From positions 41,174,188-41,238,187 of the forward strand of contig OZ024872.1 in NCBI GenBank assembly GCA_964017185.1: a DNA stretch of 64,000 bases, written 5' to 3'. The position numbers and the translations under genes are program-made. The notes under the pieces are model-generated. The model was not told where the DNA came from. It was given only the letters and a program-made list of their open reading frames with translations, and made no database searches. The stretch comes from Rugalucina vietnamica (taxonomy: Eukaryota > Mollusca > Bivalvia > Lucinida > Lucinidae). Each line of letters opens with the position of its first letter. Position 1 is the first letter of the stretch. This document shows, one piece after another, positions 11,164 to 47,820 of the stretch.

Positions 11164-12108
11164 TTATAGCTTTGACTTGGGCTTTGGCGAATCACTTAAT
11201 CCCGGAACGGCCAAAAGAAATTTGTTGATGCAATCAAGATACTCAGATGTATGTATCATCAAGTGAGCAGCATGTCTTGATTCACGCCAACATTTGTGGA
11301 GCACGGTGAACGAACCCATTGTCTTGTAGCGTTCGACCAGTTTACGGATGTCTTGATGGCTACTTACCGGATCATTTTCACTATAGAAAAAGAGAGTAGG
11401 AACCTCCAAGGGTGTGGTTTGTAGCATATGGAACATGCGTTCGATTTGTAATAAGGAGAAACCTCGCATTAGATAGAAGTAAATCATCATAATTTCTGGG
11501 AACGCTCTTTGTAAATAAACATTTCTAAACGCATGCAGACCAATTAAGTAAACCACAGTTTTGACCACCCCATCTGCATTCCCATTCCCGATGGCGAATC
11601 CAATACTGTCATATACTATAGCTTTAATCTTATACTGAATATGTCCATATTTCTCGGGGTACCTTAAAAGAAGTTCGTATGTGAAATTATTGAAATTGTA
11701 ACATCCAACAGAAATTCCATGGATGATATATTTAGTATATTCCGATGCTTCCAGGTTTAAATACTCCATCAAATCTTCCCCAAGTTTGATAGAAGAACGG
11801 GCCCACAGTAGCTGTCGGAATGACCCTGGAACAAACAACACATGCCAACCTCGGTTGAGGTAAATATCGCAGTATCTGGCGATGATCCTTTGCGTGGCAC
11901 CAATAAACCCATACAAAACAACGAGAACATCTTTCCTTGGATCATAGTCCGTTGCTGTCCAGAGCGAGAAACGCCCACCTCGTATAGGCAGTATGCATGT
12001 ACGTGCTGTCGATTGCATACGAGTTTTATATAACTGACAACCGAACGCTTGTCCATAGGTACAATAGGGACGTTGTATTCTCATGCATGATCGCAAGATG
12101 GATATCAT
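11164..12108 (-). CDS. TMEM53/DUF829-like alpha/beta-hydrolase-fold protein
   Basis: A single uninterrupted frame of 314 residues. It resembles the TMEM53 (NET4)/DUF829 family, whose vertebrate member is a nuclear-envelope protein with a hydrolase-like fold and no established enzymatic reaction. The family pattern is visible in order: VLVVLYGFIG (61-70) and the NRGWHVLFVPG strand-turn (85-95); a nucleophile-elbow-like HGISVG (130-135, Ser133); IVYDSIGF (164-171); FFYSENDP (240-247, Asp246); SRHAAHL (277-283, His279). Ser133, Asp246 and His279 could form a triad, which is inference. The length slightly exceeds the roughly 277 residues of the human protein. It has no introns, so it may be a retrocopy or an intron-poor invertebrate form. 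The start is the first Met of the frame. The N-terminal 45 residues are poorly conserved and the true start could be Met31. A poly(A) signal follows closely. Confidence 0.8.
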   Translation of the reverse strand: MISILRSCMRIQRPYCTYGQAFGCQLYKTRMQSTARTCILPIRGGRFSLWTATDYDPRKDVLVVLYGFIGATQRIIARYCDIYLNRGWHVLFVPGSFRQLLWARSSIKLGEDLMEYLNLEASEYTKYIIHGISVGCYNFNNFTYELLLRYPEKYGHIQYKIKAIVYDSIGFAIGNGNADGVVKTVVYLIGLHAFRNVYLQRAFPEIMMIYFYLMRGFSLLQIERMFHMLQTTPLEVPTLFFYSENDPVSSHQDIRKLVERYKTMGSFTVLHKCWRESRHAAHLMIHTSEYLDCINKFLLAVPGLSDSPKPKSKL

Positions 12109-12259
12109 GTCTGACTGAGACGGTATCCGTCATTCAAGGCTCTTTCTGAATAAAATTGGAGTATGTTATGATTTGTTATTGCATGTTATTAGAGTTGATA
12201 TTTTCCATCCTTGCAATTTACATACTGTACTTGAATACATTGCCCTGGATCCTAATTTT

Positions 12260-14960: not shown

Positions 14961-16108
14961 TACTCAGTACAAAAAGAAACGCAAATTTTTCATTTTCATA
15001 TTAATATAAAATATTTTCCAAATCTAAAATTTTCTAAGGTTTCGTTGCGATTTAAAAACCTTAAACTGTTTAAGGAGAAAACTTGTGAAGTCAACATTTT
15101 CCCCAAAAAATCACAATTCAGAGAAAAGTTAAACAGACATTTGCTTTAAGTTTGGTCATTGTGGATCAGCAAATCAGAAAAACACAAATTAATTGAATTT
15201 CATTAATTGAAAAATTTTCTGGGATTTTTAAAAAATGTGTTTTACAAAAAAACATTCAAGCGCGTTGGAAATTTCGCCATTTTGATATATTGTTTTGGAA
15301 AAGTAGGTCCCTTTTTCGATAACATAATGTTAGTTTGCATACATGTGACTCTCTTAATGTTTAACCTCAGTTAAAATTTCAAGTCGTTTTTCCGAACGTC
15401 CGGTTCATTGAAAAAGGTTTCTCTTAGTGATACAATCCAGGTTAAGGCAAACATTCAAAAGTTGACAGCCTAAAACTTTACTACAGTTCACGGCATCAAT
15501 ATAACGTAATTTGCAATTTGCCACTACCCCAAATTTAATTTTTGGACAATCTTGACGTTTTGCCAATTTTTGGCAAAATGTAAGGTGCCTTACATTTTAT
15601 GGACAGTATACAACTGCGTTTTAGACGGTATTATTCTTTTGGAAGAGGGTTTGACACATTTCATGTGCATTCAAGCCCAAAAGTTTACTTATGAATTTCT
15701 TTTGAGTGCCAGATTTGCCACCGTTTTGGGCATTTGGCTTCTTTTTGTGCTGTTGGCTATAGCAGCACAAGTTAGTCTGACAAACAAACTCACAAACTCA
15801 ATTCTGATTCACGAGAAGCAATCAAAAATGCTTAAATATCGTTTAAAGAAAACAAACTGACATAAGAAGTTTGTTTAAAGGATTAAAAAGAGTTTTCATC
15901 TCCACATACTCTTGCGACCTTTTGTTTATGGGTACTCTTGATTGAAACAGAAAAACATAACGTCTACGGGTTCGGGAAGTTACGGACTTCAGTCTGCTGG
16001 TAGGAAAAACTATGTCAGTCCTTGATTCCTGATTTGAATTGGTTATCGTTAAAATTGTACAAGTTATAGAGGAAAATATTTGTTTTGCGTTTCTTTATGT
16101 ACTGAGTA
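14961..16108. mobile_element. Tc1/mariner-like non-autonomous element
   Basis: The inverted ends are TACTCAGTACAAAAAGAAAC and GTTTCTTTATGTACTGAGTA, flanked by TA on both sides. TA duplications and short terminal repeats are typical of the Tc1/mariner superfamily. No transposase with a DDE/D signature was found. A 102-residue frame at 15,552-15,860 is unrecognised and may be a remnant or chance. Confidence 0.65.
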
Positions 16109-16272
16109 TACATATTTTTCACTTCACGAATGAAATAAAAGTATGGCAAGCCGTTTTACTATTTATTCAAAAACAAACAGCTATGTTATATTGTATATAA
16201 GATATCTTCTTTAATAAATGAGATTTCTACTTTATTTTATTAGATGTCTATTATAAAGAAGATATCATATAT

Positions 16273-16928
16273 CTGAATCTGAATAGTTTACTGGTGACAG
16301 GCCAAATGACATTATTTCACCAGGGGGTTCGGATGGGGGAAAAATTAGTCCCTTGAACACACGAGTGAAGCGAACTTGGACACACAATATCAGACATTTC
16401 AGTAGAGGAGATAAGTGAATCAGGGAGGTCATTCCAGTCCCTGATAGTCTGTGGAAAGAAACTACTTTTGTACACTTCTTTGCTAGCTGAAGGTATCTGA
16501 AAAGCCAAAGAGTGTTAATTTCTACAGCGCCTATTCTTTGGGATAAGGTCATCTGTGGATATTCTGGCTTTACCCTTTAGACCTTTGTATAGCAATATAA
16601 GTCTACTATCCTTCCCCCTTTTCTTAAGAGATTCCCATTGCAGTTGACCTAAAATGCCAGTCATGCTCCCAGTTTCAAAAACATAATTTCCCGTCACAAA
16701 CCTTGCCGCACGATTTTGGACCTTTTTCAGTTCTTCCTGGAGGCTATGAGTGTGAGGGTCCCAAACTGAGCTTCCATATTCCAAGACCGGTCGCACCAGT
16801 CCTTTATAAACTGCTTCTTTCATATCTGGGGGACAAGAATACAAATTTCTCCTCAAGAATCCTAGAGTTCTGTTAGCCTTTGTGCAAACATTGGAAATAT
16901 GAGTATTCCATTTCAAATCATTTGTGAT
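16273..16928 (-). mobile_element. 5'-truncated non-LTR retrotransposon (CR1/jockey-like RT C-terminus)
   Basis: The minus strand encodes the region after the reverse transcriptase core. A 133-residue frame (16,515-16,916) contains LGFLRRN, YKGLVRPVLEYGSSVWDPH and VQNRAARFVTGNY, a pattern common in CR1/jockey-type elements. A second frame (16,317-16,508) continues with FFPQTIRDWNDLPDSL, so at least one frameshift separates them. The 3' end is a TGAATC/GATTCA-type short repeat. It inserted inside the GATATC array and is dead on arrival. A related fragment is at 47,090-47,720. Confidence 0.8.
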
Positions 16929-17502
16929 ATCTATAGCAAATAAGATATCTGTTTTGTTATATTATATATCTAAATTGTCAATTGAGATATCTTATATAGT
17001 ATATAAGATATTTTTTTAACTAAACAAGATATCTTTTTTTGCTAATGTAGATATCTAAATTAACAAATAAGATATCTTGATTGATATATTAGATATTGTA
17101 AAAATCAATAAGATATCTTAATTATTCATTTAGATATCTGATATAGCATTTAAGATATCTTATTTGTTAATTAAGATATCTTGTTTAACAAATTAGATAT
17201 CTTAATCTTGTAAAGAAGATATCTTATTTAGGTATAGTAGATATCTTATTTAGTACATAAGATATCTTATTTAGTATATTAGATATTTAAATTATCAAAT
17301 AAGATATCTTATATGCTATATAAGATATCTTAATTGTGGGATCAAATAAGATATCTTATTTAGCAAATAAAATATCTTTTTTACTATATAAGATATCTAA
17401 TTTAGGATATAAGATATCTTTTTTGATAAAGAAGATATCTTTATTGCTAAATAAGATATCTTATATCCTAATTAAGATATCTTATTTACTATTCAAGATA
17501 TC
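16926..17502. repeat. 21-bp phased GATATC array
   Basis: Observed GATATC-type starts include 17,050, 17,071, 17,092, 17,112, 17,133, 17,154, 17,175 and 17,196, then 17,218, 17,240, 17,261, 17,282, 17,303 and 17,324. After a 26-base step they continue at 17,350, 17,371, 17,392, 17,413, 17,434, 17,455, 17,476 and 17,497. The core is conserved (AAGATATCTT) while spacers differ, unlike an ordinary satellite where whole units are conserved. Confidence 0.95.
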
Positions 17503-17599
17503 TAATAAGCATAATAAAAAGTAAAACGGCTTGCCATATAAAAGCCATATTCAACAGAAACATTTGAATTTTCTTTTTATTAAATACAATGTTTAGTAC

Positions 17600-17793
17600 A
17601 GCCATTTCAGCGAAGGAAAGCAAATCTAGCTATCAACTATAGCTTGTTGTTACAAAATCTGGCATTTGAAATTCTGTGGTATTGAGCTTCATAAATAGCC
17701 ATTTCAGCGAAGGAAAGCAAATCTAGCTATCAACTATAGCTTGTTGTTACAAAATCTGGCATTTGAAATTCTGTGGTATTGAGCTTCATAAAT
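17600..17793 (+). repeat. Tandem duplication of 97 bp
   Basis: Two adjacent, essentially identical copies (17,600-17,696 and 17,697-17,793) beginning AGCCATTTCAGCGAAGG. The identity implies a very recent duplication or an assembly artefact. Confidence 0.9.
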
Positions 17794-17904
17794 CTCTATT
17801 TTACCCAAAAAGAGTCGCGTGCTGGATGACCAGATGTTGACCAGACAGCAATGACATTTACTCTTGACATGGGGATTCAGTCTTCCCATTGAACATATAC
17901 ATTA

Positions 17905-18157
17905 CCACCCATGTAATACACAGAGATTTTTAAATTTGTAAAAGAATGAAAATTTTTAGTAGATTTTTATATAGTTTTTCTTATTTTTGTTCAAAATATA
18001 GATTGTGGGTACTGGCCAAGGCCGTTCTAACGAGTACCCACAATCTACGTTTTGGAGCAAAAATAAGAAAAATAGATATACCCTTGCGTACCCCAGTTTT
18101 GAGTATAAAAGTGGGGTTAAAGGGGGTATTAATTTTACGGACATGTTTTCCTGATAT
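17905..18157. mobile_element. Hairpin MITE, family A (copy 3)
   Basis: The central hairpin is kept (ATTGTGGGTACTGGCC... GAGTACCCACAAT). The right end is ATGTTTTCCTGAT and the left end is degenerate (ACCCATGTAATACACAGAG). It lies directly upstream of the broken TMEM53-like copy. Confidence 0.75.
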
Positions 18158-18230
18158 ATAAGATTTCAGTATATATGGAAACAATACAGCATTATTCATT
18201 TACATGATGGATGTTTTACACTTTAGAAGA

Positions 18231-18745
18231 AAAGAGACATTGGCGAATCAAGGAAAGATGTTCTCGTGGTAATGTTTGGCTTGTTTTGCCAAATACTGCG
18301 ACCGAGGTTGGAATGTGTTGTTTGTTCCCGGGTCATTCCGACGGCTACTCTATCAAACTTGGAGAGGATTTGATGGAGTATTCAAACCTGGAAGCATCGG
18401 AACATACGCATTATACGTATCATCCATGGAATTTCTGTTGGATGTTACAATTTCCATGCTTTCACATACGACGTCCTGAGAAGTATGGACATATCCGATT
18501 TAAAATTAAAGCTATAATATATGACAGTATGGGATTCGCCATCGGGAATGCATATGGGATGGTCAAAGCTGTGATGAACTTAATTGGTTTGCATACGTTT
18601 AGAAATGTTTATTTACAAAGAGCGTTCCCAGAAATCATGATTAATGCGAGATTTCACAATATTACAAATCGAATGTACGTTCCATGTGCTACAAACCATG
18701 CCACTGGAAGTTCCAACTCTCATATGATCCCGTAACTAGCCATCA
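18231..18745 (+). pseudogene. Broken TMEM53/DUF829-like copy
   Basis: Pieces of the protein at 11,164-12,108 are recognisable in order but in more than one frame: the RGWNVLFVPGSF strand in one frame, then SIKLGEDLMEYSNLEASE, then RRPEKYGHI, IKAIIYDSMGFAIGN and NVYLQRAFPEIM in another. It covers about residues 66-255 of the intact protein. The nucleophile-elbow motif is frameshifted, the N- and C-terminal parts are missing, and a truncated family B MITE follows. It is intronless like the intact gene and in the opposite orientation. It is clearly non-functional as a full protein. Confidence 0.85.
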
Positions 18746-18754
18746 AGACATCGG

Positions 18755-18932
18755 TAATCGCGAAGCTGATCAGCGTCTTTGTTTTCGCTACTCGGATAGT
18801 ATAATTCTTCTAATTCTTCTACTTTCTAAATCCAAAATTTCCAGTCTCTAGGTCTTTTCTGTGCTTGTACAGGCTGGTTTGTGTCAGACCTGTTCGGAAA
18901 CCACAATGTTGGTTTTCCCACGAGGCGGCTCA
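18755..18932. mobile_element. MITE, family B (copy 2, truncated)
   Basis: Only the right two-thirds remains, from the GCGAAGCTGATCAGCG hairpin arm to the end CACGAGGCGGCTCA. It abuts the TMEM53-like pseudogene. Confidence 0.75.
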
Positions 18933-20044
18933 TATGCATTTTGTATGTCAAGGACAGGCAACTCCTCCATCTACAAAAAGGTACTTTAGAACAAATAAAT
19001 ATAAAATGGACGTCTGTGCGGGTTTTGTACGCATGAAATTCACCACGGCAGCCAGAATCAATGATAAATGCAAATTATTAATAATGAAAAAATGAATTGT
19101 ATATAGGCTATGACTTTTTTGTTGTAGACTAGATCTAGTAAGAAACTATCACGAATTCATGTAACATTGCTATAATCTCTATAACCTCTGAACAAGAAGA
19201 CTGCATACATATATTCAATATGTATACTCTGAAAAAAATAAAAACAATGAACATCATCATTCAATCATTGTATCTTCTTCTTCCATTCATATCACTCATC
19301 CTTCGGACAAGCCTGCGGAAAAAGTAAGAAAAAAAAAGATCGTGATGGACTGAAGTTTCAACAGCTGTGTCAATATTTAATAGCGGTACATAAAAAGCGC
19401 GATTGAATAATTTTTTATTGATTTCTTAGCCATTTCTTAGATCAGCTTTTCAAGCTTAATCAGTGCTAGTTTGCATAATAGAAGAATCTCACTCAGGTTC
19501 TTGCTAACAAATCACATACGTATGTTTCATGCGCCAAATTAACATACGCACAAATTAACTCCGGTGTGTAAATTTACTCCGGTGTGCAAATTTACTCCGA
19601 TGAGCAAATTAGGTCTTGAGCGTTCGCATGGGTTTGATCACCGAGAGTATTTTTTTAACTAAAACATTTCTCGAGTTAAGCTTTGCAAAGCAGTAAGAGG
19701 CTGCACTGCAAATGCTGCATGAATCCTCAACAAGAATGATGAAGAAGTAGTGTAACGGACTGCACACCCTAATGTATAAAATGTATTGAATTAAAGTAAA
19801 TTCTTATTCAACAACAATATCATTAGTTTCAGCAACTGCCAAGTAATCAGTAGAGAGTAAAAATGTGAAAATCCATTATCTAGAAAGCAGATTCTGCAAC
19901 CAATATCTGACCGTCGAAATGAATTTGCACACTGGAGCGAATTTACTCCAATTGCATTTGCTAGCAATGTAGTGCCAAAGAAAACAACATTTTATCATGG
20001 TATGCCACTGTATATCATTGCCAAGATTAATTTTCCAACGCACC

Positions 20045-20310
20045 AAAGTGTGTAGTCACAGCACCGAAATTGTTGGAGTCACATCACTAAGTTTGTTGGA
20101 GTCACATCACTGAGTTTGTTGGGGTCACAACACTGAGTTTGTTGGAGTCACAGCACTAAGTTTGTTGGAGTCACAGCACTGAGTTTGTTGGAGTTACAGC
20201 ACTGAGTTTGTTGGAGTCACAGCACTGAGTTTGCTGGTGTCACAGCACTGAATTTGTTGGAGTCACAGCACTGAATTTGTTAGAGTCACAGAACTGAGTT
20301 TGTGGAGATT
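20045..20310 (+). repeat. 23-bp minisatellite
   Basis: About eleven units of GTTGGAGTCACAGCACTGAG plus TTT, with point differences. It ends just downstream of the CNRIP1-like gene's last exon and could lie in its 3' UTR. Confidence 0.9.
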
Positions 20311-20317
20311 ATGTTTG

Positions 20318-23300
20318 CTATAAATATCTTTCTTTGGTGACATCAACATATGTATGTCCCTCTGAAACATGGCAGTCATATTCGATGGAAGTCAATTTGT
20401 TTCCCCATTTACTGTGTTCAATTTCCTTTTCAGCGTAGAACTTGCACTGTAACTGTGCCTTCAGAATAAGGCCGGGTTCCAACTAAAAATACGGACAAAA
20501 TACAGTGAACTCGACAATAGAGAATCATCGACAATGGCGAACCACTCGTAAAGATATTGCAGAATTTCTTGAAACATACAAAAAATCATTTATTATATTA
20601 CTCAGTCATTTACTTTCATCTATGCCTTGGGGTTTGGTAAAAGAATGGAGTCAAAATTCCACCGGACAATAAAATCAGGGTTGCTGAAACGCTTGGCCCC
20701 TTAACTAAGATGCCTAGTTTATTGTTCGACAAAAAGTAACGTTCAGATAAAATGTGTTTCATACCTCGTTTCTAAGCATTTGATGATGGCCACTTTTGCA
20801 TTACTTTAATGCCTAATATCCCTAGTTATGCAATATGCCTGTTTTTGATAAAAGTTTTGACACTGAAGGTAGATGTAAGCGGGGAAAGATGTACATTTAA
20901 ATTCGACAATAGCGAATCATACTTTGTGTGGTGAAAAGAATGTGCACAAAATACTGATAATCTACCTTTTGAAGGCTTGCCCTGGAACCATTTGGTTTGG
21001 TTAATGGCGTAACTAATATTGGTGCAAGTCGTGGTTTAACCATCTTGCTTTTAGGCTTACATTGTGATTCGTTAAAGCAACCAGAGGACCAATGGTCCTG
21101 TAAACGCTCACCTGAGACCTGAGATATATACCAATAAATTTGTTTGACTAGAATGGTAATATACATGTATATAACCCCAGAGCAACCTCTGGAGGCAATT
21201 TCTTTTTTAAATCATAAAGATTCAGTCCATTTGCCAATTTACTGCAAGTTTTGCCCTAACAATTTTCCCCATTCAAATGCATGGGCAACCTAAGTTGACC
21301 TTGCTGTAAAAAAGGTCAAGGTCATCCCAGGGTCATGATTTATACAAACTTTGTAGAGCTGCATTGCCTGATGCTTCATGCCAAGTTTCAAAATCATAGG
21401 CCTTCTGGTTCTGGAGAAGAAGATTTTAAAGGTTTTTACTATTTATAGCCATGGCAGCCATCTTGGTCATGTGACCTTGACCATTTATACAAATTTTCAT
21501 TCACTCTTCCTAAGAATGCTCCACAAAAAGTTTGGCTTTGATTGGCCAAGCGGTTTCAGAGAAGATGTTTGAATATTATGGTCATACACATGTATATAGC
21601 CCCAAGGCAGGGGCAGACAACCCTCTGGGTCCAAAATATTTTCATTAATATGAATATTCTGTCCATTTGCTCATTCCTAGCAAGTTTTCTGCCATTAAAT
21701 GACATTTTTCTATTTTTTCCCATTCAAATGCATCGACGGCCTAAGTTGACCTTGCCGTAAAACAGGTCAAGGTCATCCCAGGGTCATGATTTATACAAAC
21801 TTTGTAGAGCTCCATTGCCTGATGCTTCATGCCAAGTTTCAAAATCATAGGCCTTCTGGTTCTGGAGAAGAAGATTTTTAAAGGTTTTTGCTATTTATAG
21901 CCATGGCGGCCATCTTGGTCATGTGACCTTGACCATTTATACAAACTTTCATTCATTCTTCCTAAGAATGCTCCACATAAAGTTTTGCTATGATTGGCCA
22001 AGCGGTTTCAGAGAAGAAGATGTTTGAATATTATGGTCATACACATGTATATAGCCCCGGGGCAGGGGCAGACAACCCTCTGGGCCCAAAATATTTTCAT
22101 AAACATGAATATTCTGTCCATTTGCTCATTCCTAGCAAGTTTTCTGCCATTAAATGACATTTTTCTATTTTTTCCCATTCAAATGCATCGGCGGCCTAAG
22201 TTGACCTTGCTGTAAAACAGGTCAAGGTCATCCCAGGGTCATGATTTATACAAACTTTGTAGAGCTCAATTGCCTGATGCTTCATGCCAAGTTTCAAAAT
22301 CATAGGCCTTCTGGTTCTGGAGAAGAAGATTTTTAAAGGTTTTTGCTATTTATAGCCATGGCGGCCATCTTGGTCATGTGACCTTGACAATTTATACAAA
22401 CTTTCATTCACTCTTCCTAAGAATGCTCCACATAAAGTTTGGCTTTGATTGGCCAAGCGATTTCAGAGAAGAAGATGTTTGAATATTATGGTCATACACA
22501 TGTATATAGCACCGGGGCAGGGGCAGACAACCCTCTGGACCCAAAATATTTTCATAAACATGAATATTCTGTCCATTTGCTCATTCCTAGCACGTTTTCT
22601 GCCATTAAATGACATTTTTCTATTTTTTCCCATTCAAATGCATGGGCGGCCTAAGTTGACCTTGCCGTAAAACAGGTCAAGGTCATCCAAGGGTCATGAT
22701 TTATACAAACTTTGTAGAGCTCCATTGCCTGATGCTTCATGCCAAGTTTCAAAATCATAGGCCTTCTGGTTCTGGAGAAGAAGATTTTTAAAGGTTTTAG
22801 CTATTTATAGCCATGGCGGCCATCTTGGTCATGTGACCTGGACCATTTATACAAACTTTCGTTCCCCCTTCCTAAGGATGCTCCATATGAAGTTTGGCTT
22901 CGATTGGCCTAGCGGTTTCAGAGGAGAAGATCTTTGAAATTGTGAACGACGGACGACGGACGACGGACGACGACGGACGACGACGGACGCCGGAGCATGG
23001 GTATACTATAAGCTCACCTGTGAGCCTTCGGCTCAGGTGAGCTAATAAGACATGCTTAAATCGGTAAAATTGACCTTTCCGGTATGGCATTTGCTGTTGA
23101 CAGTAAACGTAAAGCACAAAAGCAAATTAACACAATATTGTCAAACCCCATTTAGTTTCGAATGATGATGGCACCATTTGTGAGCAAAAATACTCTTCTA
23201 AAATGGTCTCTTATGGGCTATAGACTATCTGATTCGCCATTGTCGAGTTTGGTTCGCCATTGTCTAATGCAGGAGGTATCATATCAACAGAGTTATCTCC

Positions 23301-23489
23301 CATTAAGAAATTGAATGAATTTAAATTATCATTTTCCTGTAAAGCTGAGATATGTTAGATGTTCTTAGTATCAAATAGAATAACATTCTCATGGTCGTGT
23401 TTAAAATAATAGCGTTAGATCTCTTAGTGATTCGCCATTGTCGAGTAAACTGTAGTAAGATCGTAATGCGATCGTATATAAAATAGTAA

Positions 23490-23548
<59 letters not shown>

Positions 23549-26500
23549 AAATCCAGATGTAGATCCTCAAAATGAAATAGATATACAGAAACAAAATCAC
23601 TTTCATCGGTATTCTCATTGCAAGAGTGATTTTATATAATACTCTTTACTTTCGCAGTTTCTTTAACGGTAAAAGTAACCCCAGATACCTAAATGTTTTC
23701 CATGTTTAAATTAAACGCCGCGTCAACTTTAAAATGATCCCATTGTTATTTCTCATGTCTTCTTAATGTATGTCGATAACACGTGTACATAGAAAGAAAC
23801 TGTCTTCTCTGGCATGTCATACAAGAAACGAGATGAATGCTGTAAAATCGTTTTACCTCAAAGACAAAGGGTACTTCCTTCCTCTTCCCATTCTTGCTAT
23901 GGTCATGACCACCAGTGTTGTAGATCGCATTGTAAACTCGCTTGTTTTCTTTTGCTTCAACGCTTTCAACTTCTACGTCGAGACTTTCACCATGAATGAT
24001 CAGCTTCCTGAAAACGCATTCATTTTTTGTGGGTAAATAAGATATTACCAGGATTCTGCCAAATGCGTATTTTCGTCCTTGCTCTGTACTTTGAGAGACT
24101 ATGTCCTCGTTGAGTATAATTTTAAATATAAGAGAACTACGCCGGAAGCACGGCGTTGGACTTTGAGTCTTGAATGTTAGCGACGACTCAATCGATTTTA
24201 ATCTATGACTGACTAGACTGAATCTCAACTCCCCAATAAATGATTTAACAGGTAGTCAATCTTCACGTAAATTACTAATGTAATCATTTGACCTTTCTAA
24301 CGGAGTTGGATTTGGAGTTGGAATTGTAATTGGACTTGGACTTTGTAATATTAGCGAGGGTTGTTTCAAAACATTGAAGGTAAATAAGTATAAAAGCAGA
24401 ACTGTATACAGGACAATGTTACGGTATTTGAATTTGAATATGGAATATAAAAGAGGGGTGTGTCAAAGAGTTTTATCACTTCTCTTTTTCAACTGACAGA
24501 CAGCAAGACTGCAATTGGTTAATTTCATTACATGAAGTAAACTTTTTAATAGAATTTTATTAGACATACTCGTCGTCACTAGTGTCACTGCTGACGCCCA
24601 GCTCTCTCAGCAGTTTTGGGACCTTCTTTGTTAAGAACCTTCTATACAGAAGCTGGTTCTCTCTTAACAGCGAACTCTATTGAAAAAGTTTATTCATGTA
24701 ATGTAATTAACCAATGCTGCCAATCAATTGATACCAGAGGACCAATGGTCCTGTATACGCTCACCTAAGATCTGCTGCATACACCAATAAACATGAATAT
24801 TATGGTATTTTACCCCAGTGCAGGGATGAAGCCCTTGTACAATTTTCTTTTTTCAGAATAATCAATATTCTGTCCATTTGCCAATTTCCTTCTCGTTTTC
24901 CCTTTCAAATGACATTTTTAACAGTTTTCCCCATTCAAATGCATAGGTAACCCATGTTGACCTTGCCATAAACTGGGTCAAGGTCATCACAGGGTCATGA
25001 TTAATATATACATTTCAGTACTTTTGCCATCGATGCTTCACGCCAAGTTGCATTGAAATCAGTTTATTGATTTCTGAGATGAAGATTTTTGAAGGATTTT
25101 TACCATATATGGGCATGGCCGCCATCTTGGTCAAGTGACCTAGATTATTAATATACATGTTTATATATTGGTTCCCCCATCCTATAGATGTTTCACATAA
25201 AATTTGGCTTTAATTGGCCAAGTGGTATCAGAGGAGAAGATGTTTGAATATTATGGTAATATACATGTTTATTGTCCCAGAGTGGGGGCATATGAGCCCT
25301 AGGGTCCAATCTTTTTTCAGAATCATTAATATTCAGTCCTACTACCCATTTCCTGCAAGATTTTCACCTCAACTGACCTTTTAAAAGTTTTCCCCATTGA
25401 AATGCATTGGCGACCTATGCTGACCTTGTCATAAAATAGGTCAAGGTCACCACAGGGGCATAATTTATATACACATTGTAGAACTTTAGGCTCGATGATA
25501 AATGTCAAGTTTTTTTTGAAGATTTTTGAAGTGTTTTACCATATATGGGCATGGTGGCCATCTTGATCATGTGACCTAGATTTTTATATACATATAAATT
25601 CCCCCATTCTATAGATGCTTCACAAAAAATTTGGCTTTGATTGGCAAAGCGGTTTCAGACTGAGATAAAGATGTCTCTGTTTCAGAGGAGAAGATGTTTG
25701 AATATTATGGTGATATACGTGTATATTGCCCCGGGGTGGGGGCTTACGGGCCCCTAGGGTTTATTCTTTCAGAATCATTAATATTCCGTCCTACTGCATA
25801 TTTCCTGCAAGACTATCACTTTAAATGGCATTTTAAAAGTTTTCCCCATTCAAATGCATTGATGACCTATGTTGAACTTGCCGTAAACAGGTCAAGGTCA
25901 TCACATGCTCATGATTTATATACACATTGTAGAACTTGAGTCTTCCATACTTCATGCAAAGTTTCGTTGAAATCGGTTCACCGGTTCTGGAGAAAATGAT
26001 TTTTGAAGGGTTTTTTTATCATATATGGGCATGGCGGCCATCTTTGTCATGTGACCTAAATTATGTATATACACATTGGTTCCCACTTCCTATATATGAT
26101 TCATGTAATATTTGGCTTTGATTGGCCAAGTGGTTTCAGAGAAGATCTTTGAAAAGTGTGTATAGACGACAGACTGTCCAAGGTCAAAAGATGACATTGA
26201 CCTAAATTAATCATATACATGTACCTTCATCTAATCCATTAGTTGTTTGCATCTACCACTTTTCGGGTCTCAGGCTGCAATAATTTCAAAAAATCCATAG
26301 TTTTCGCTTTTTCCCATGTAAAAGCCAATGTTTCCAAAATTGACCTTGGTTAAATAGGTCAAGGTCATCAGAGGGTCATGCTTTATATATATATTGAAGT
26401 ACTTGAGTCATAGATGCTTCATGCCAAGTTTCATTGAAATCGGTTCAATGATTTTTAAAGATTTTTAACATATATGGGCGTGGCGGTCATCTTGGTCATG

Positions 26501-29500
26501 TGACCTGGATTATTTATATACACATTGGTTCCCCCTTCCTATAGATGCTTCATATAAAATCTGGCCTTGATTGGCTTAGTGGTTTCAGAAGAGAACATCT
26601 TTAAAATTGTGGGCGGACGGAGGGACGGACGCCGGATCATGGCCATCCTATAAGCTCACCTTGTGAGTCTAACGGCTCAGGTGAGCTAAAAAAGAAGTAA
26701 TAAAACCATTTGAGACACCCCTCTTTTATGTTCCATATTCAAATTCAAATACCGTATCCTAACATTGCCCTGTATACAGTTCTGCTTTTATACTTATTTA
26801 CCTTCGATGTTTTGAAACAACCCTCGCTAATATTACGAAGTCCAAGTCCAATTCAAATTCCAACTCCAACTCCAACTCCATTAGAAAGGTCAATTAGCAG
26901 CTCTTCCTATTGGACTTCGTCCCAGACAAATTGTTAGCCAGTGATAGATTCACTTTTGTTATAACAAGTACAAAAAGATCATTTATATAGTGCATATGTA
27001 TGGGGTGCCGTTTTACTATAAAATCCCGATTTTTTGATATCAGAAATTCGATTTTTTGATATCAAAAATTATTTTTTGATATCAGAAATTCGATTTTTTG
27101 ATATCAGAAAATATTATTTGATATCAGAAAATATTTTTTGATATCAAAAAATCGATTTTTTGATATCAGAAAATCGAATTTCTGATATCAAAAAATCGAA
27201 TTTGTGATATCAAAAAATCAGGCTTATTTTTTGATATCAGAAATTCGATTTTTTGATATCAGAAATTCGATTTTTTGATATCAAAAATTCGAATTTTTGA
27301 TATCACAAAATCGAATTTGTGATATCAAAAAATCAGGCTTATTTTTTGATATCAGAAAATCGAATTTCTGATATCAAAAAATCGAATTTCTGATATCAAA
27401 AAATGGAGAGTATTTTTTGATATCAAAAATTCGATTTTGTGATATCAAAAAATTCCTTAGACCTTCCTTTGCTGAGAAAAAATGATAGATCCCTCAAATT
27501 ATTTATAGGCTTGCATGGGCTGAGTTCAGGTGTTTAACTATGGTCACTATAGTTTTCGCGAAAATCTACTTGAAATCCGCTGTGTATGTTCAGTAAAATT
27601 ACCGATAAATTGCGCGGCATGGTCAGACTTGAAACATGCGCAGCAGAATATACACGGTTTCCCATGCGTTTCTTTATTGAAATGGGCCGGAATGTGCCTA
27701 TAATTATTGAAACATTTAATTACACTCGTAGACTAAGACTCAAGGAATATTTTTATGAAAAAAATACTGATAAAGATGGTGTCTCAGAATCAAACATGTA
27801 TAAACAAATGCCATTTTTTAATAAGAAAGTATCAACATTTATTCCACCGAGCGGCCGCGATACCTATTTGGATTTCTACATTGAAGCAGTTACACAAGAA
27901 ATTCTCCAAGCAAGCCCTAAACAAACAGTCTACAGTAATATTTCAAAAGAGGAGATGAATTCACTGCGCTCACTTAGCCAAGATGATTCAATTGTGATAA
28001 AAAAGGCTGACAAGTCAAATATGATTATAATAATGAACAAAACAGACTATATCAAGGAGGTTGAACGTCAATTAACTGATGAAAAATATTATACTGAATT
28101 AGATGAAAATCCATCTAAAGCAATTGAACAGAACATTTTTGACTGTATCAATAAGATCAGTGAAACAAACAGTGCTGTAGAGCGTGAATTTGATCCCATT
28201 CCAAACCATGTACGTGTTCCACAATTCTACATACTACCTAAAACTCATAAACAGTATCAGGACCATTTACCAATTGGATATCCGGGACGCCCTATTGTAT
28301 CAGCATGTAACAGCTACACAGAAAATATTTCTAAATACATTGATTACATTTTGCAACCATATATGAAATCTTTACCATCATTTGTTAAAGATACTACAGA
28401 CTTTATTTGCAAAATAAAATCTGTCCCCAAGTTGAAACAAAATTCATTGCTCGTCACACTTGATGTTACCTCCCTATATACAAACATTCCCCATGAGGAT
28501 GGAATAGAAGCTTGTAAATACTTTTTAAACCAAGATAAAAGCATCAGTCGACTATCACCTGATGAAATCTGTAGTCTTATTAAACTGACACTTGAGAATA
28601 ACCATTTTCAATTCAATGATAAAAACTACATTCAGAAGCTTGGAACAGCAATGGGAAGTTCTATGGCTCCAGCGTACGCATCACTCTTCATGGGTAAACT
28701 TGAAAAAGACTTCATAGAACAGTGTTCATTGACACCAACAGTATGGCTTCGTTTCTTGGATGACATCTTCATGATCTGGGACCATTCATTAGCTGAACTG
28801 GAAGATTTTATAAACCGCTTGAACAGTTTTCATCCAACTATCAAATTCACACACACAGTATCTGATACAAGTGTGAGTTTTCTGGATGTTAACATATCCA
28901 AAAATGTGGACAGTACATTATCTACAGATATTCACATCAAATCAACGGACGTTCACCAGTACTTGCATTTTTCTTCGTGTCACCCGAGAAAATGTAAGGA
29001 AAGTATACCATACAGTCAAGCAAAACGGTACCGGCGAATAATATCTGATGATAACAGCTTCCAAGGATCACTAGATGAACTCAAGGGACATTTCCTTAAA
29101 AGGCAGTATCCAGAAAAGGTCATTGACTCGGCATTCCAAAAGATATCATCACAGACACAGGATGAAGCCTTAGTGAATTCTGATGTGAAAGATAAAGCTA
29201 AGAACATTATTCCATTTGTTGTACCATACAACATTTCACTGCCAAATCTTGGTTTAACAATAAACAAGTACTGGGACCTGTTTAATTTATCAAGTAAAGA
29301 AAGTCTAAACTTTCTTCACATTCATACGCCAGTTATAGCCTTTAAAAGAGCTAAAAATCTTCAAGACTGTTTAACACATTCAATTTTGAATAAGCCCAAT
29401 GAAAGTAGCCAGTCTACAAAATGTAATAGACGCCGATGCACACACTGTAGTTCCATTATAGAAAGTACTCATTTTACCAGTACAAACACTAATGAAACAT

Positions 29501-30091
29501 TTAACTTACATTTTAGCAGTGACTGTAGATCAAAGGACGTTATTTACATGATAACGTGCAAAAAGTGCAAAAAACAGTATATTGGTCAAACGCATCAGTT
29601 AGTGTCTAACCGTATGAACAGTCATAAATTTGACATTAGAAATATGAGTGATCCAAGTTTCTCAACAAATGTTGCGATTCACTTCAATTCTAATGGACAT
29701 TCAATTGAAGATTTTTCTTTTATGCCAATTGATTATGTTTCTAATAACATGAATAGACTGCTCAAAGAGACGTATTGGATTCACAAACTAGATACTTTAT
29801 ATCCTAAAGGTCTAAATGCTAAAGTGCTTTACAAAATATAATTCAACTTTTTATTGGTACTTTACTGTTGTTTCCATTTTACATGTTTTATATTATAGGA
29901 TCTAATTTCTATGGAAATAATTGCATCATTGTATTACTGTAGTTTCCATAAATGAATAAATGCCCCCCCCCCTTTCTATCCATTATATTATTTACTTAAC
30001 TATCTATTTATTTTATTTATACAAATTATTATTATTATTATTTTTTTATAATTCTTTTATTTATTTATTTATTCATTCATTTATTTATTAT

Positions 30092-30139
<48 letters not shown>

Positions 30140-30210
30140 ATTCATTCATTTTTTATTTATTTTTATTTATTTATTATTATTTATTTTTTTTTTTATTTAT
30201 TTATTTACTT

Positions 30211-30242
<32 letters not shown>

Positions 30243-33200
30243 TTTGTGGAAGGTATGGTAATACTTTTTGATCCAGTTATGGTATCAATGTACTTTCAAA
30301 ACTTTAGCATTTACTGTGTTCCATAACGTCAACGTCATTTTGGCGTTTTCCAATAACGTCAACGTCATTTTGGCGTTTTTACATCACTTCCTGCTAAATT
30401 CACCTAATTTTGGCGTTTTTGCTGTCATTTCCTGTTATTTCTATCTGATGAAGGGAGTAATCCCGAAACATGTTATAGAAAGAAAAATACTGTGTTGATT
30501 TTGATTTGATCCCAGCTCCTATAATTATTGGACACTTTGAAGGCAGAACAGAATAAGAGCCGCCGCATGAGGAAACTAACAATCTGCATAGGCGAAAATA
30601 AAGGCGCAGGATCAGCTTCGCAGTAACCGCGTATCTGATCAGCGCCTTTGTTTTCGCTACACGGATAGTACATCATCAGTTTCAATACTTTCTAGATCTG
30701 ACATTCCAAGTTTCTAGCATGCTTCTTTGGCTGTACAGGACTTGGTCGGAACTGAAATTGTTGTTTTTCTCACGCACAGACTCTAATATTATATAGATAA
30801 AGATAATTATTGTTATTATGAGCCTGATATAAGTACCATACAAGTGTGTGCTGCGGCGTACGATGGGGGGGGGGGGGTCTAGCTGACATCAATTGCCTAT
30901 GCTTGTGTCCCTGAAGACTACCGTCACGTTGACAACCCCTGATATGAGGTCTGGTCATAGTTTTGATCGAAGAAACGTTGAATCAGCGTTAAAATTCTAA
31001 CAATTATTCCCCCTCCACCTTCTTCTGTCATCCGTAACCCAATGCGCAACTGCAGGAGGTTAATTTTATTATGTTTAAATGAAACACATCTGATAGGCCT
31101 ACTTGTATTTTTATGCATATGAAATACTACACAATTACACAGCAGTAAGGCCATTCCGATAATTAGGTCCATCCGGTAAAGGAACCACGTGGATGCCACG
31201 AGGTGCGACTGGTACAGAGCGTTTCGCGAAAAGTCAAACAGTCAAACTATGGGACAGATAGTTGAGAGAGTTGCCTTTCATTAGTGAGGATGAACATTTA
31301 TCACCGACATAAAATGCCTTTACGGCCGATCGGGAATCGAACAGCCAACCTCTCGGTTGCAAAGCGAAAAAGCTATCTACTTGACTAGCGTGACACTAGC
31401 TACCACCCGAACTAACCCATAAACTGTTTATTTTACATGGGAAACTACTCTAATTGTTTCTTGTTAGGGAGCCGTCATTTCTTAGATGGAAAATTTTCCA
31501 GATTTTTTGATATCAAAAAATCGAATTTTTGATATCAAATAATCGCTTTGATTTTTTGATATCAAAAAATCGAATTTTTGATATCAGAAAATCGAATTTT
31601 TGATATCAAGAAATCGCTTTGATTTTTTGATATCAGAAATTCGATTTTTTGATATCAGAAAATCGAATTTTTGATATCAGAAAATCGAATTTTTGATATC
31701 AAGAAATCGCTTTGATTTTTTGATATCAGAAAATCGATTTTTTGATATCAGAAAATCGAATTTTTGATATCAGAAAATCGAATTTTTGATATCAAGAAAT
31801 CGCTTTGATTTTTTGATATCAGAAATTCGATTTCTTGATATCAGAAATTCGATTTTTTGATATCAAAAATTCGATTTTCTGATATCAAAAATACTGATTT
31901 TATAGTAAAAAGGCGCCTCATACATATGAGATTACATGAGGCACCGTAGACAGAAACTCGTTCATGAATCTTAAAATTAAAGTACAGCTCCGTTTCATTA
32001 ATAACATACCCCTGCAATGTCGCAAAATAAATTGACCCCGCACCCTACATTGCATGGCTCATTGCTGGGTGGTTATTAGTCTGGCCTGGATGAAACTTCT
32101 ACAAGTTGTGTATATATTTATGTGTGTTAAACTGGTAGTTTGTTTGTATTGATCGTGAGCAGTCCGATTGGACAGGAAGCTGCTTTCGGCGTGTACCAAA
32201 ATTCTGATAGATTTAATGTCAAGTTTTCAACTTTCGGCGATTGGTATTATGTAAGTACTGTGAATATTGCCAGTTTCTGACATGAATGTTGTTCATTGGC
32301 ATCTATTGTAGATACCTTAAAACTAACATCACATTCGCTAAAGTACTGAAGTAGAAATGAATATCTAACTATACCTACTACCCTGTATATGCTACCATGC
32401 AAATGCATGTTTTCAGCACAATAAATTGTCTGAAAGTTTATCAAATTTAAAAACTGGACATCTGAGAACATCATTAACAGTTGACATGATTATTTAAAGA
32501 GAGTTACGATAGCCTTGTATCTAATGCAATGTGTACCTGCCTATGACGATGTTTTAAGTTAAGTAATGACATTCTTAAACATATATTTATTAAGGTCATT
32601 TGATGGTTTTTGAATACAATTGATTGAAATAGTGTGACTGGCGATTTTAACAAGACTGCTTATATTAGTAATCATCCACTTTCAACGAATTAAATATTAA
32701 ACGCGCGAGAACAAACTAAGATGGAAGTAGACATTTAGAGCAGTTTTGCTTCCTTGAAGTATGTCTGTAATGAAGGAAATAGCATCTATTTAATCATTAT
32801 TTCTAAACTTTATATGTAATGCGAATGCGGTGCAAGTTTTAATGTATATCAAAGAGATGTCAATGAATAACATTCAGGTCAGAAAGTGGCAGAATTCACA
32901 GTACTTACATAATACCAATCGCCGAAAGTTGAAAACTTGACATTAATTCTGTCGGAATTTTGGTACATGCCGAAAACAGCTTCCTGTCAAATCGGACTGC
33001 TCACGATCAATATAAACAAACTACCAGTTTAACACAAATAAATGTATACACAAATTGTAGAAGTTTCATCCAGGCCAGACTAATAACCATCCAGCAATGA
33101 GCCATGAAATGTAGGGTGCGAGGTCAATTTATTTTGCGACATTGCAGGGGTATGTAATTAATGAAACGGAGCTGTACAATAATTTAATAGAAATAAATTT

Positions 33201-46909: not shown

Positions 46910-47820
46910 GGTTGACAACTGTAGGTCTGGTCACGATCATCCCAATGTCACGAGTCATACGAATTTCCCAAAAGCAAGATCATAAGACTTTGGGTTCTGG
47001 CGATTTTTTTTAAATATTTATTAAATATAATGGCGGCCACCTTGGTCAGCTTACCTAAACCTTTTTATATGGATACCTGGGTGTAACTAATCACAAATGA
47101 TTTGAAATGGAATACTCATATTTCCAATGTTTGTACAAAGGCTAACAGAACTCTCGGATTCTTGAGGAGAAATTTGTATTCTTGTCCCCCAGATGAAAGA
47201 AGCAGCTTATAAAGGACTGGTGCGACCGGTCTTGGAATATGGAAGCTCAGTTTGGGACCCTCACACTCATGGCCTCCAGGAAGAACTGGAAAAGGTCAAG
47301 GTTTACTGGAAATTATGTTTTTGAAACTGGGAGCATGACTAGTATTTTAGGTCAACTGAAATGGGAATCTCTTAAGAAAAGGAGGAAGGATAGCAGACAT
47401 ACTCGTATTGCTATACAAAAGTCTAAAGCCAGAATACCTACAAATGACCTTATCCCGAAGAATAGGCGTTGTAGAAATCAACACTCTTTGGCTTTTCAGA
47501 TACCTTCAGCTAGCAAAGAAGCGTACAATAGTTTCTTTCCACAGACTATCAGGGACTGGAATGACCTCCCTGATTCTCTTATCTCCTCTGCTGAAATGTC
47601 TGATGACTGTGTGTCCAGGTTCGCATCTCTTGTGAGAGCCAGGGACTAATTTATTTCCCTCCTGGCGCACCCCCTGGTGAGGTATTGTCAATTTGGCGTG
47701 TCACCAGTAAACCATTCAGATTCAGATGGAATTTCCCCAAACTTCTCAGGGGCTTGGCTTTGGTTGTCCAAGCTGTTTCAATAAAGATCTTTTAAAATGG
47801 TGAACAGACGGATTTAACTT
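46910..47820 (+). mobile_element. Family C unit split by a non-LTR fragment
   Basis: 46,910-47,085 (with ATGGCGGCCACCTTGGTCAG) and 47,728-47,820 (GGCTTGGCTTTGGTTGTCCA) are parts of one decayed family C unit. The non-LTR fragment 47,090-47,720 lies between them. Confidence 0.5.
47090..47720 (+). mobile_element. 5'-truncated non-LTR retrotransposon, second copy
   Basis: Same family and the same truncation point as 16,273-16,928: both begin near TCACAAATGATTTGAAATGG and end near ACCAGTAAACCATTCAGATT. Recognisable pieces are LRRNLYSCP, VRPVLEYGSSVWDPH, FTGNYVFETGSM and FFPQTIRDWNDLPDSL, in more than one frame with deletions. It is non-functional. Confidence 0.8.

Follow-up and report, generated by a model that had tools for sequence, protein, structure and literature searches.

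Elements at the locus

The window, that is, the whole stretch analysed, comprises 64,000 nt of contig OZ024872.1 (positions 41,174,188 to 41,238,187) from the bivalve Rugalucina vietnamica, whose genome assembly spans 1.09 Gb in 47 contigs. It contains two transposable elements, here called element 1 and element 2, that share terminal inverted repeats (TIRs), are bordered by 6-bp target-site duplications (TSDs) and carry arrays of a palindrome centred on GATATC (Table 1). A search of the window with the TIR core TATGGNNNGCCGTTTTACTAT, allowing up to 3 mismatches, returns exactly four matches against 0.03 expected, at 16142 (+), 17538 (-), 26999 (+) and 31922 (-). Element 1 has the termini TATGG..CCATA between exact copies of TAAAAG, and element 2 the termini TATGG..CTCATA between exact copies of CATATG. 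The shared TIRs and the 6-bp direct repeats reported by a first-pass annotation of this DNA are thereby confirmed, except that the ends match less well than it implied: the right end of element 2, TATGAGGCGCC, is an imperfect mirror of its left end and reads TATGAGG.

The window holds 71 copies of GATATC against 15.2 expected, and 42 pairs of them are separated by 14-16 intervening bases against 0.02 expected. The surrounding palindromes are of at least three types, named after the base preceding GATATC: type A, AAGATATCTT, repeated mostly every 21 bp (element 1); type T, TTGATATCAA, mostly every 22 and 27 bp (element 2); and type G, GGATATCC, mostly every 21-22 and 26-28 bp. The common plan noticed earlier therefore stands, while the number of subfamilies rises from the two first proposed. 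The accompanying statement that the ends run straight into the arrays has to be qualified for element 1, whose left array has only two exact sites before a fragment resembling a long interspersed nuclear element (LINE). Judging by its appearance, we take this fragment to be a LINE reverse-transcriptase tail; a Pfam scan of its frame gives no match, and copy L004 is continuous across the insertion point, without the insert. A second LINE-like tail, similar by eye, lies at 47197-47649 (+).

A dispersed family with 6-bp target-site duplications

Genome-wide, the exact TIR core occurs 1,313 times (637 forward, 676 reverse) in 1.09 Gb, against 0 + 0 for its reversed control. Because some of these matches are single insertions copied along in larger repeats, the insertion events are fewer than 1,313; one outer flank is common to L014, L015, L016, L023, L027 and L028. 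In 257 Gb of prokaryote contigs, 19 stretches have one TIR match each, with 0-2 GATATC within 300 bp, and viral contigs have no match to a 26-base form of the query, a form unable to match T-type ends.

The copies examined come from the first 100 TIR places listed, every one on contig 1; 20 stretches were picked for paired ends and 20 for an unpaired end, the latter extended about 9 kb inward, and the T-type copies L054 and L055 were added later. The TSD test took all copies in loci L001-L054 and the window with both ends at no more than 3 mismatches, dropping L005 (a second view of L004) and counting identical 8-bp flank pairs once. Twenty of the 27 distinct flank pairs are exact over 6 bp, 24 agree at five or more of the six bases, and none is exact over 7 or 8 bp; among 702 mismatched pairs serving as control, 8 are exact and 17 reach five of six. 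When L002/L014/L025, L031/L037/L038 and L010/L011 are each collapsed by hand as single insertions, 22 separate insertions are left, 18 of them with exact 6-bp TSDs, two at five of six (L010/L011 and L040) and two without (L016, which may pair ends from two nested elements, and L018). L055, outside the 27 pairs, has a TSD matching at five of six bases by eye. The proposal of a real transposon family with consistent TATGG..CCATA ends, 6-bp TSDs, GATATC arrays and several subfamilies is upheld.

The copies sized in this test (n = 27) measure 0.4-3.4 kb, element 2 with its nested retroelement excepted. In a comparison of 17 elements, identity over aligned parts is 82-98% inside each of the A and G types, apart from the A-type copy L030 at 73-75%. 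Nested within some G-type copies is a relative about 430 bp long with CGTGCC on either side; in L022 this site is empty.

A retroelement nested in element 2

Element 2 reaches 4.9 kb because a Penelope-like retroelement, which now makes up much of its interior, has inserted into a T-type element. Penelope-like elements encode a reverse transcriptase and a GIY-YIG endonuclease in one frame, and both are present here: the 755-codon frame at 27574-29841, mostly inside 27710-30517, matches RVT_1 (E = 9.8e-11) and GIY-YIG (E = 6.1e-5). The T-type copy L054 (2,189 bp, TSD GACTAG) has no such retroelement and contains CCTATAATTATTG once, against twice in element 2 (27697 and 30518). The frame is therefore rejected both as a transposase of element 2 and as its cargo; the coding region belongs to a passenger retroelement. 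L055 has a different nested insertion in another place. L047 (2,985 bp, TSD GGTTAC) is a relative at 81-82% identity over the aligned internal parts and has 5 exact GATATC.

The T-type right end, TATGAGGCGCCGTTTTACTAT, has 118 exact matches in the genome, the window copy differing by one base, and the interior segment 31140-31490 recurs at 99-100% identity in at least 40 places including the window (the best 40 of 190 candidates). Within this interior, at about 31290-31420, a tRNA-like B box, GTTCGATTCCC, is seen by eye on the minus strand, perhaps from a captured short interspersed nuclear element; ARAGORN finds no tRNA in the window.

Table 1. Positions in the window of elements 1 and 2 and their parts
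Feature	Position	Strand	Remark
Left TSD of element 1, TAAAAG	16136..16141	.	
Element 1, A type (AAGATATCTT arrays), 1,397 bp, non-autonomous	16142..17538	+	relatives carry separate TSDs
Left TIR of element 1, about 26 bp, with a single mismatch against right TIR	16142..16167	+	by eye
Left-array remnant, 2 exact GATATC	16201..16266	.	
LINE-like reverse-transcriptase tail within array	16275..16915	-	approximate borders
Main array of element 1 with 23 exact GATATC, spacing mostly 21-22 or 41-42 bp	16926..17502	.	
Right TIR of element 1	17513..17538	-	
Right TSD of element 1, TAAAAG	17539..17544	.	
Left TSD of element 2, CATATG	26993..26998	.	
Element 2, T type (TTGATATCAA arrays), 4,924 bp including nested retroelement	26999..31922	+	relatives L054, L047, L055
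Left TIR of element 2, TATGGGGTGCCGTTTTACTATAAAATC	26999..27025	+	
Left array of element 2, 19 exact GATATC, spacing 20, 22 or 27 bp	27036..27446	.	
Left internal non-array sequence	27447..27709	+	common to L047 and L054
13-bp TSD of Penelope-like insertion, CCTATAATTATTG	27697..27709	.	single in L054
Penelope-like retroelement, 2,808 bp, within element 2	27710..30517	+	
Second copy of 13-bp TSD	30518..30530	.	
Right internal non-array sequence of T-type element	30531..31508	+	
Right array of element 2, 17 exact GATATC, spacing 22 or 27 bp	31509..31886	.	
Right TIR of element 2, TATGAGGCGCC type	31896..31922	-	
Right TSD of element 2, CATATG	31923..31928	.	

Composition and symmetry of the palindrome arrays

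A- and G-type copies longer than 800 bp hold 24-57 palindromes, mostly 21-22 bp apart, and compact copies are nearly all array (48 sites in the 1,359 bp of L004, 37 in the 999 bp of L022). The compositions of the left and right arms around GATATC are complementary. Pairing of the arms within single sites, beyond what composition predicts, was assessed on 154 A, 28 T and 168 G distinct sites from 4, 1 and 7 elements, respectively. It is inconsistent, the z-scores (rough, as the copies used are related) running from -3.5 to +3.1 with both signs over 30 arm positions; the extremes are +3.1 at G-type position 3 and -3.0 and -3.5 at A-type positions 3 and 5. Since the arms are symmetric and lack consistent covariation, a dimeric protein site fits better than a conserved hairpin, and we predict from the sequence that the GATATC palindromes are symmetric sites whose halves are read separately by a protein.

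Probable assignment to IS3EU and a possible role of the arrays

Fungal IS3EU elements are described with TAYGG..CCRTA ends, 6-bp TSDs and TIRs longer than 30 bp (PMC12730594), and complete IS3EU families with TA..TA termini throughout and TSDs usually of 6 bp (PMC10045372). The earlier view that ends of this kind are known from no system therefore cannot be kept. TA..TA termini are present in both window elements; TAYGG..CCRTA stands at both ends of element 1 and of those fetched A- and G-type copies in which both ends are exact, some A-type copies having AATGG at one end; and the TSD has the IS3EU length in the 20 exact flank pairs. By eye, the TIR extends for about 44 bp with one mismatch in the G-type copy L017, and for about 26-27 bp before diverging in element 1 and L054. 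On account of these ends, the 6-bp TSDs, the dispersed relatives and the nesting of copies and other elements, we consider it probable that elements 1 and 2 are non-autonomous cut-and-paste transposons of IS3EU type, members of a large dispersed family mobilized in trans. The enzyme, encoded elsewhere, would be a DDE transposase of IS3EU type, cutting at the TA..TA ends and joining them to sites staggered by 6 bp.

The GATATC palindromes, which recur for the most part at intervals of about two turns of the helix, would then be candidate targets of a DNA-binding protein that acts as a dimer; the simplest choice is the DNA-binding domain of the transposase itself, the alternative being an accessory protein. 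Such arrays would raise the local concentration of the enzyme at the element and could promote the amplification of array-rich copies, and the three array types may represent sub-lineages with a changed binding preference. We tentatively propose, as a possibility short of an expectation, that this mobile DNA is essentially one array of dimeric sites for an element-specific protein, diversified into three sub-lineages (A, T or G before GATATC) that have kept their ends, TSD and near-equal spacing.

Several observations weigh against this interpretation. The T type fits TAYGG at its left end only, its right end departing from it. No transposase-bearing copy was found among the copies read, in which Pfam scans covered 5 + 10 open frames; this agrees with the earlier remark that neither window element has a transposase, and because of it the link to IS3EU consists of the ends and the TSD alone. 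Loci L050-L053, which carry integrase genes matching PF24764 (rva_4), show no convincing TIR match and contain two GATATC at most per stretch examined, and on contig C1 below 79.47 Mb, where the listing of exact TIR matches ends, neither of the two rva_4 matches lies within 40 kb of a listed TIR. Since copies were selected by their paired ends, the TSD rate applies to copies that look intact. As to the arrays, helix phasing is partial (10.5-bp resultants of 0.64 for A, 0.49 for G and 0.52 for T, other periods scoring higher), and dense arrays may be unnecessary, as the complete element L047 has no more than five exact GATATC.

Two candidates for the source of the enzyme were set aside. The search with PF24764, presumably the right model for IS3EU, gives at least 134 matches in the genome (best 150 of 242 candidates scored); rva_4 genes are not supported as partners by the four loci fetched, whose stretches contain no good TIR or array, L051 yielding eight poor TIR-like matches at 6 mismatches. 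One of these genes, in L052 (G000:C3:1765200-1769700), lies in a unit present as 8 copies that are 99-100% identical for 4.5 kb or more and include two inverted-orientation pairs on C3 whose starts are 9 and 12 kb apart; the unit is a very recent mobile or duplicated one, observed to at least 4.5 kb. The other candidate, L048, has an exon-like frame beside a TIR and array. As an autonomous copy it is rejected: the segment has two other copies, 99% identical over the whole length; the C9 copy L056 matches from L048:560 onwards and has no TIR at up to 4 mismatches; and no right TIR, at the same threshold, follows within about 18.7 kb of the left TIR of L048.

Alternative explanations

The arrays could be a passive minisatellite that the element captured and that slippage then amplified, with no part in movement. 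Site numbers do range from 5 to 57, and at L032:5520-8922 an A-type element and its flank stand in tandem as three 1,065-bp units, a transposon turning satellite-like. In oyster, moreover, a published table labels the satellites CgiSat35 and CgiSat47 as DNA/IS3EU (PMC8268682), a tie between animal tandem repeats and IS3EU that also speaks against novelty, as judged from the label and the unit lengths of the two satellites (690 and 129). However, each subfamily keeps near-fixed symmetric positions around GATATC while other bases vary, and drift alone does not predict one plan in three different palindromes; we regard a purely passive origin as rather unlikely.

It is unlikely, too, that the elements form a distinct, undescribed superfamily with 6-bp TSDs, convergently acquired TATGG ends and a transposase of another kind. 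The want of a transposase in the copies read would suit such a superfamily, as would the dense palindromic arrays, of which the matching IS3EU literature, among the matches listed, makes no mention. The five terminal bases and the TSD length nevertheless coincide with those of IS3EU, and a missing master copy is common in non-autonomous transposon families.

Hairpins or cruciforms, formed by the DNA or a transcript as in fold-back elements, have become very unlikely as the function of the palindromes. Every GATATC site can pair with itself, and 136 long imperfect inverted-repeat pairs fall in 15900-18100, across the element 1 array; yet the arms do not covary consistently, with one of the 30 positions strongly positive and two strongly negative, and all 27 Rfam matches in 26900-32000 lie below the gathering score. 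A single composite 15.8-kb mobile unit spanning both elements, suggested by their adjacency and common end sequences, is practically untenable, as the two differ in TSD and array type and have separate relatives elsewhere.

Comparison with known mobile elements

Members of an IS3EU-type family, as we interpret the present elements, would share with IS3EU/GingerRoot the TA..TA termini, TAYGG..CCRTA (from which the T-type right end departs), the 6-bp TSDs and the TIRs, and would differ from them, as far as these are described, in having no transposase in the copies read and an interior made up largely of GATATC arrays. No IS3EU element with palindromic arrays is described in the open-access literature, among the matches listed. 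The array-rich layout is thus apparently the new part, the ends and TSD being of a known IS3EU type; the family may be present in Repbase. Polintons, one of the candidates suggested earlier, are large elements with polymerase, integrase and capsid genes, and do not agree with copies of 0.4-3.4 kb or with an element 2 frame composed of RVT_1 and GIY-YIG. piggyBac duplicates TTAA, unlike the 6-bp TSD here, and Helentrons are rolling-circle elements, whereas those described here have TIRs and a 6-bp TSD.

Styx of Zymoseptoria, which according to its description shares IS3EU coding sequence, has 6-bp TSDs and likely moves non-replicatively, resembles the present family in its TSD, in a TIR length of some dozens of bp (36 in Styx) and in subgroup differences in mid-TIR (PMC10853768). 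It differs in carrying coding sequence, the copies here being mostly short and having no assignable frame of their own. Subterminal palindromes are a further likeness, to piggyBac and piggyBat, in which two cysteine-rich domains of the dimeric transposase are reported to bind them; piggyBat, as described, has three imperfect palindromes at the left and none at the right, against dozens here, and its TIR also differs (PMC11707139). Satellite-carrying Helentrons of the Pacific oyster offer a parallel in that mobile DNA disperses short tandem arrays (PMC7492417). Dada, another earlier candidate, is described as lacking TIRs and inserting in small RNA genes (PMC3706591), at odds with the clear TIRs and varied 6-bp target sites found here.

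The layout is dominated by regularly spaced palindromes in non-autonomous elements and comes in three naturally occurring versions of the same array. If the transposase does bind the arrays, site number could drive amplification or, as with the subterminal sites of piggyBat, restrain it. Should the palindromes be dimeric sites, the three types would form a natural series of changes in protein-DNA specificity, and site number might be a fitness trait of non-autonomous copies.

Other repeats in the window

A frame at 11164-12129 (-) matches DUF829 in Pfam, a domain we take to be TMEM53-like. Just downstream of element 1, at 18208-18735 (+), lies a shorter relative in the opposite orientation, recognized by eye and giving no Pfam match. 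Three further repeats were noted by eye: a stretch of about 100 bp starting at gccatttcagcgaaggaaagc, present twice in tandem at about 17600-17795 and adjoining element 1; a tandem array with a unit of about 24 bp, gttggagtcacagcactgagttt, at about 20060-20300; and a separate repeat containing gacaatagagaatcatcgacaatggcgaac at about 20490-21090, a relative of which is nested in the T-type copy L055.

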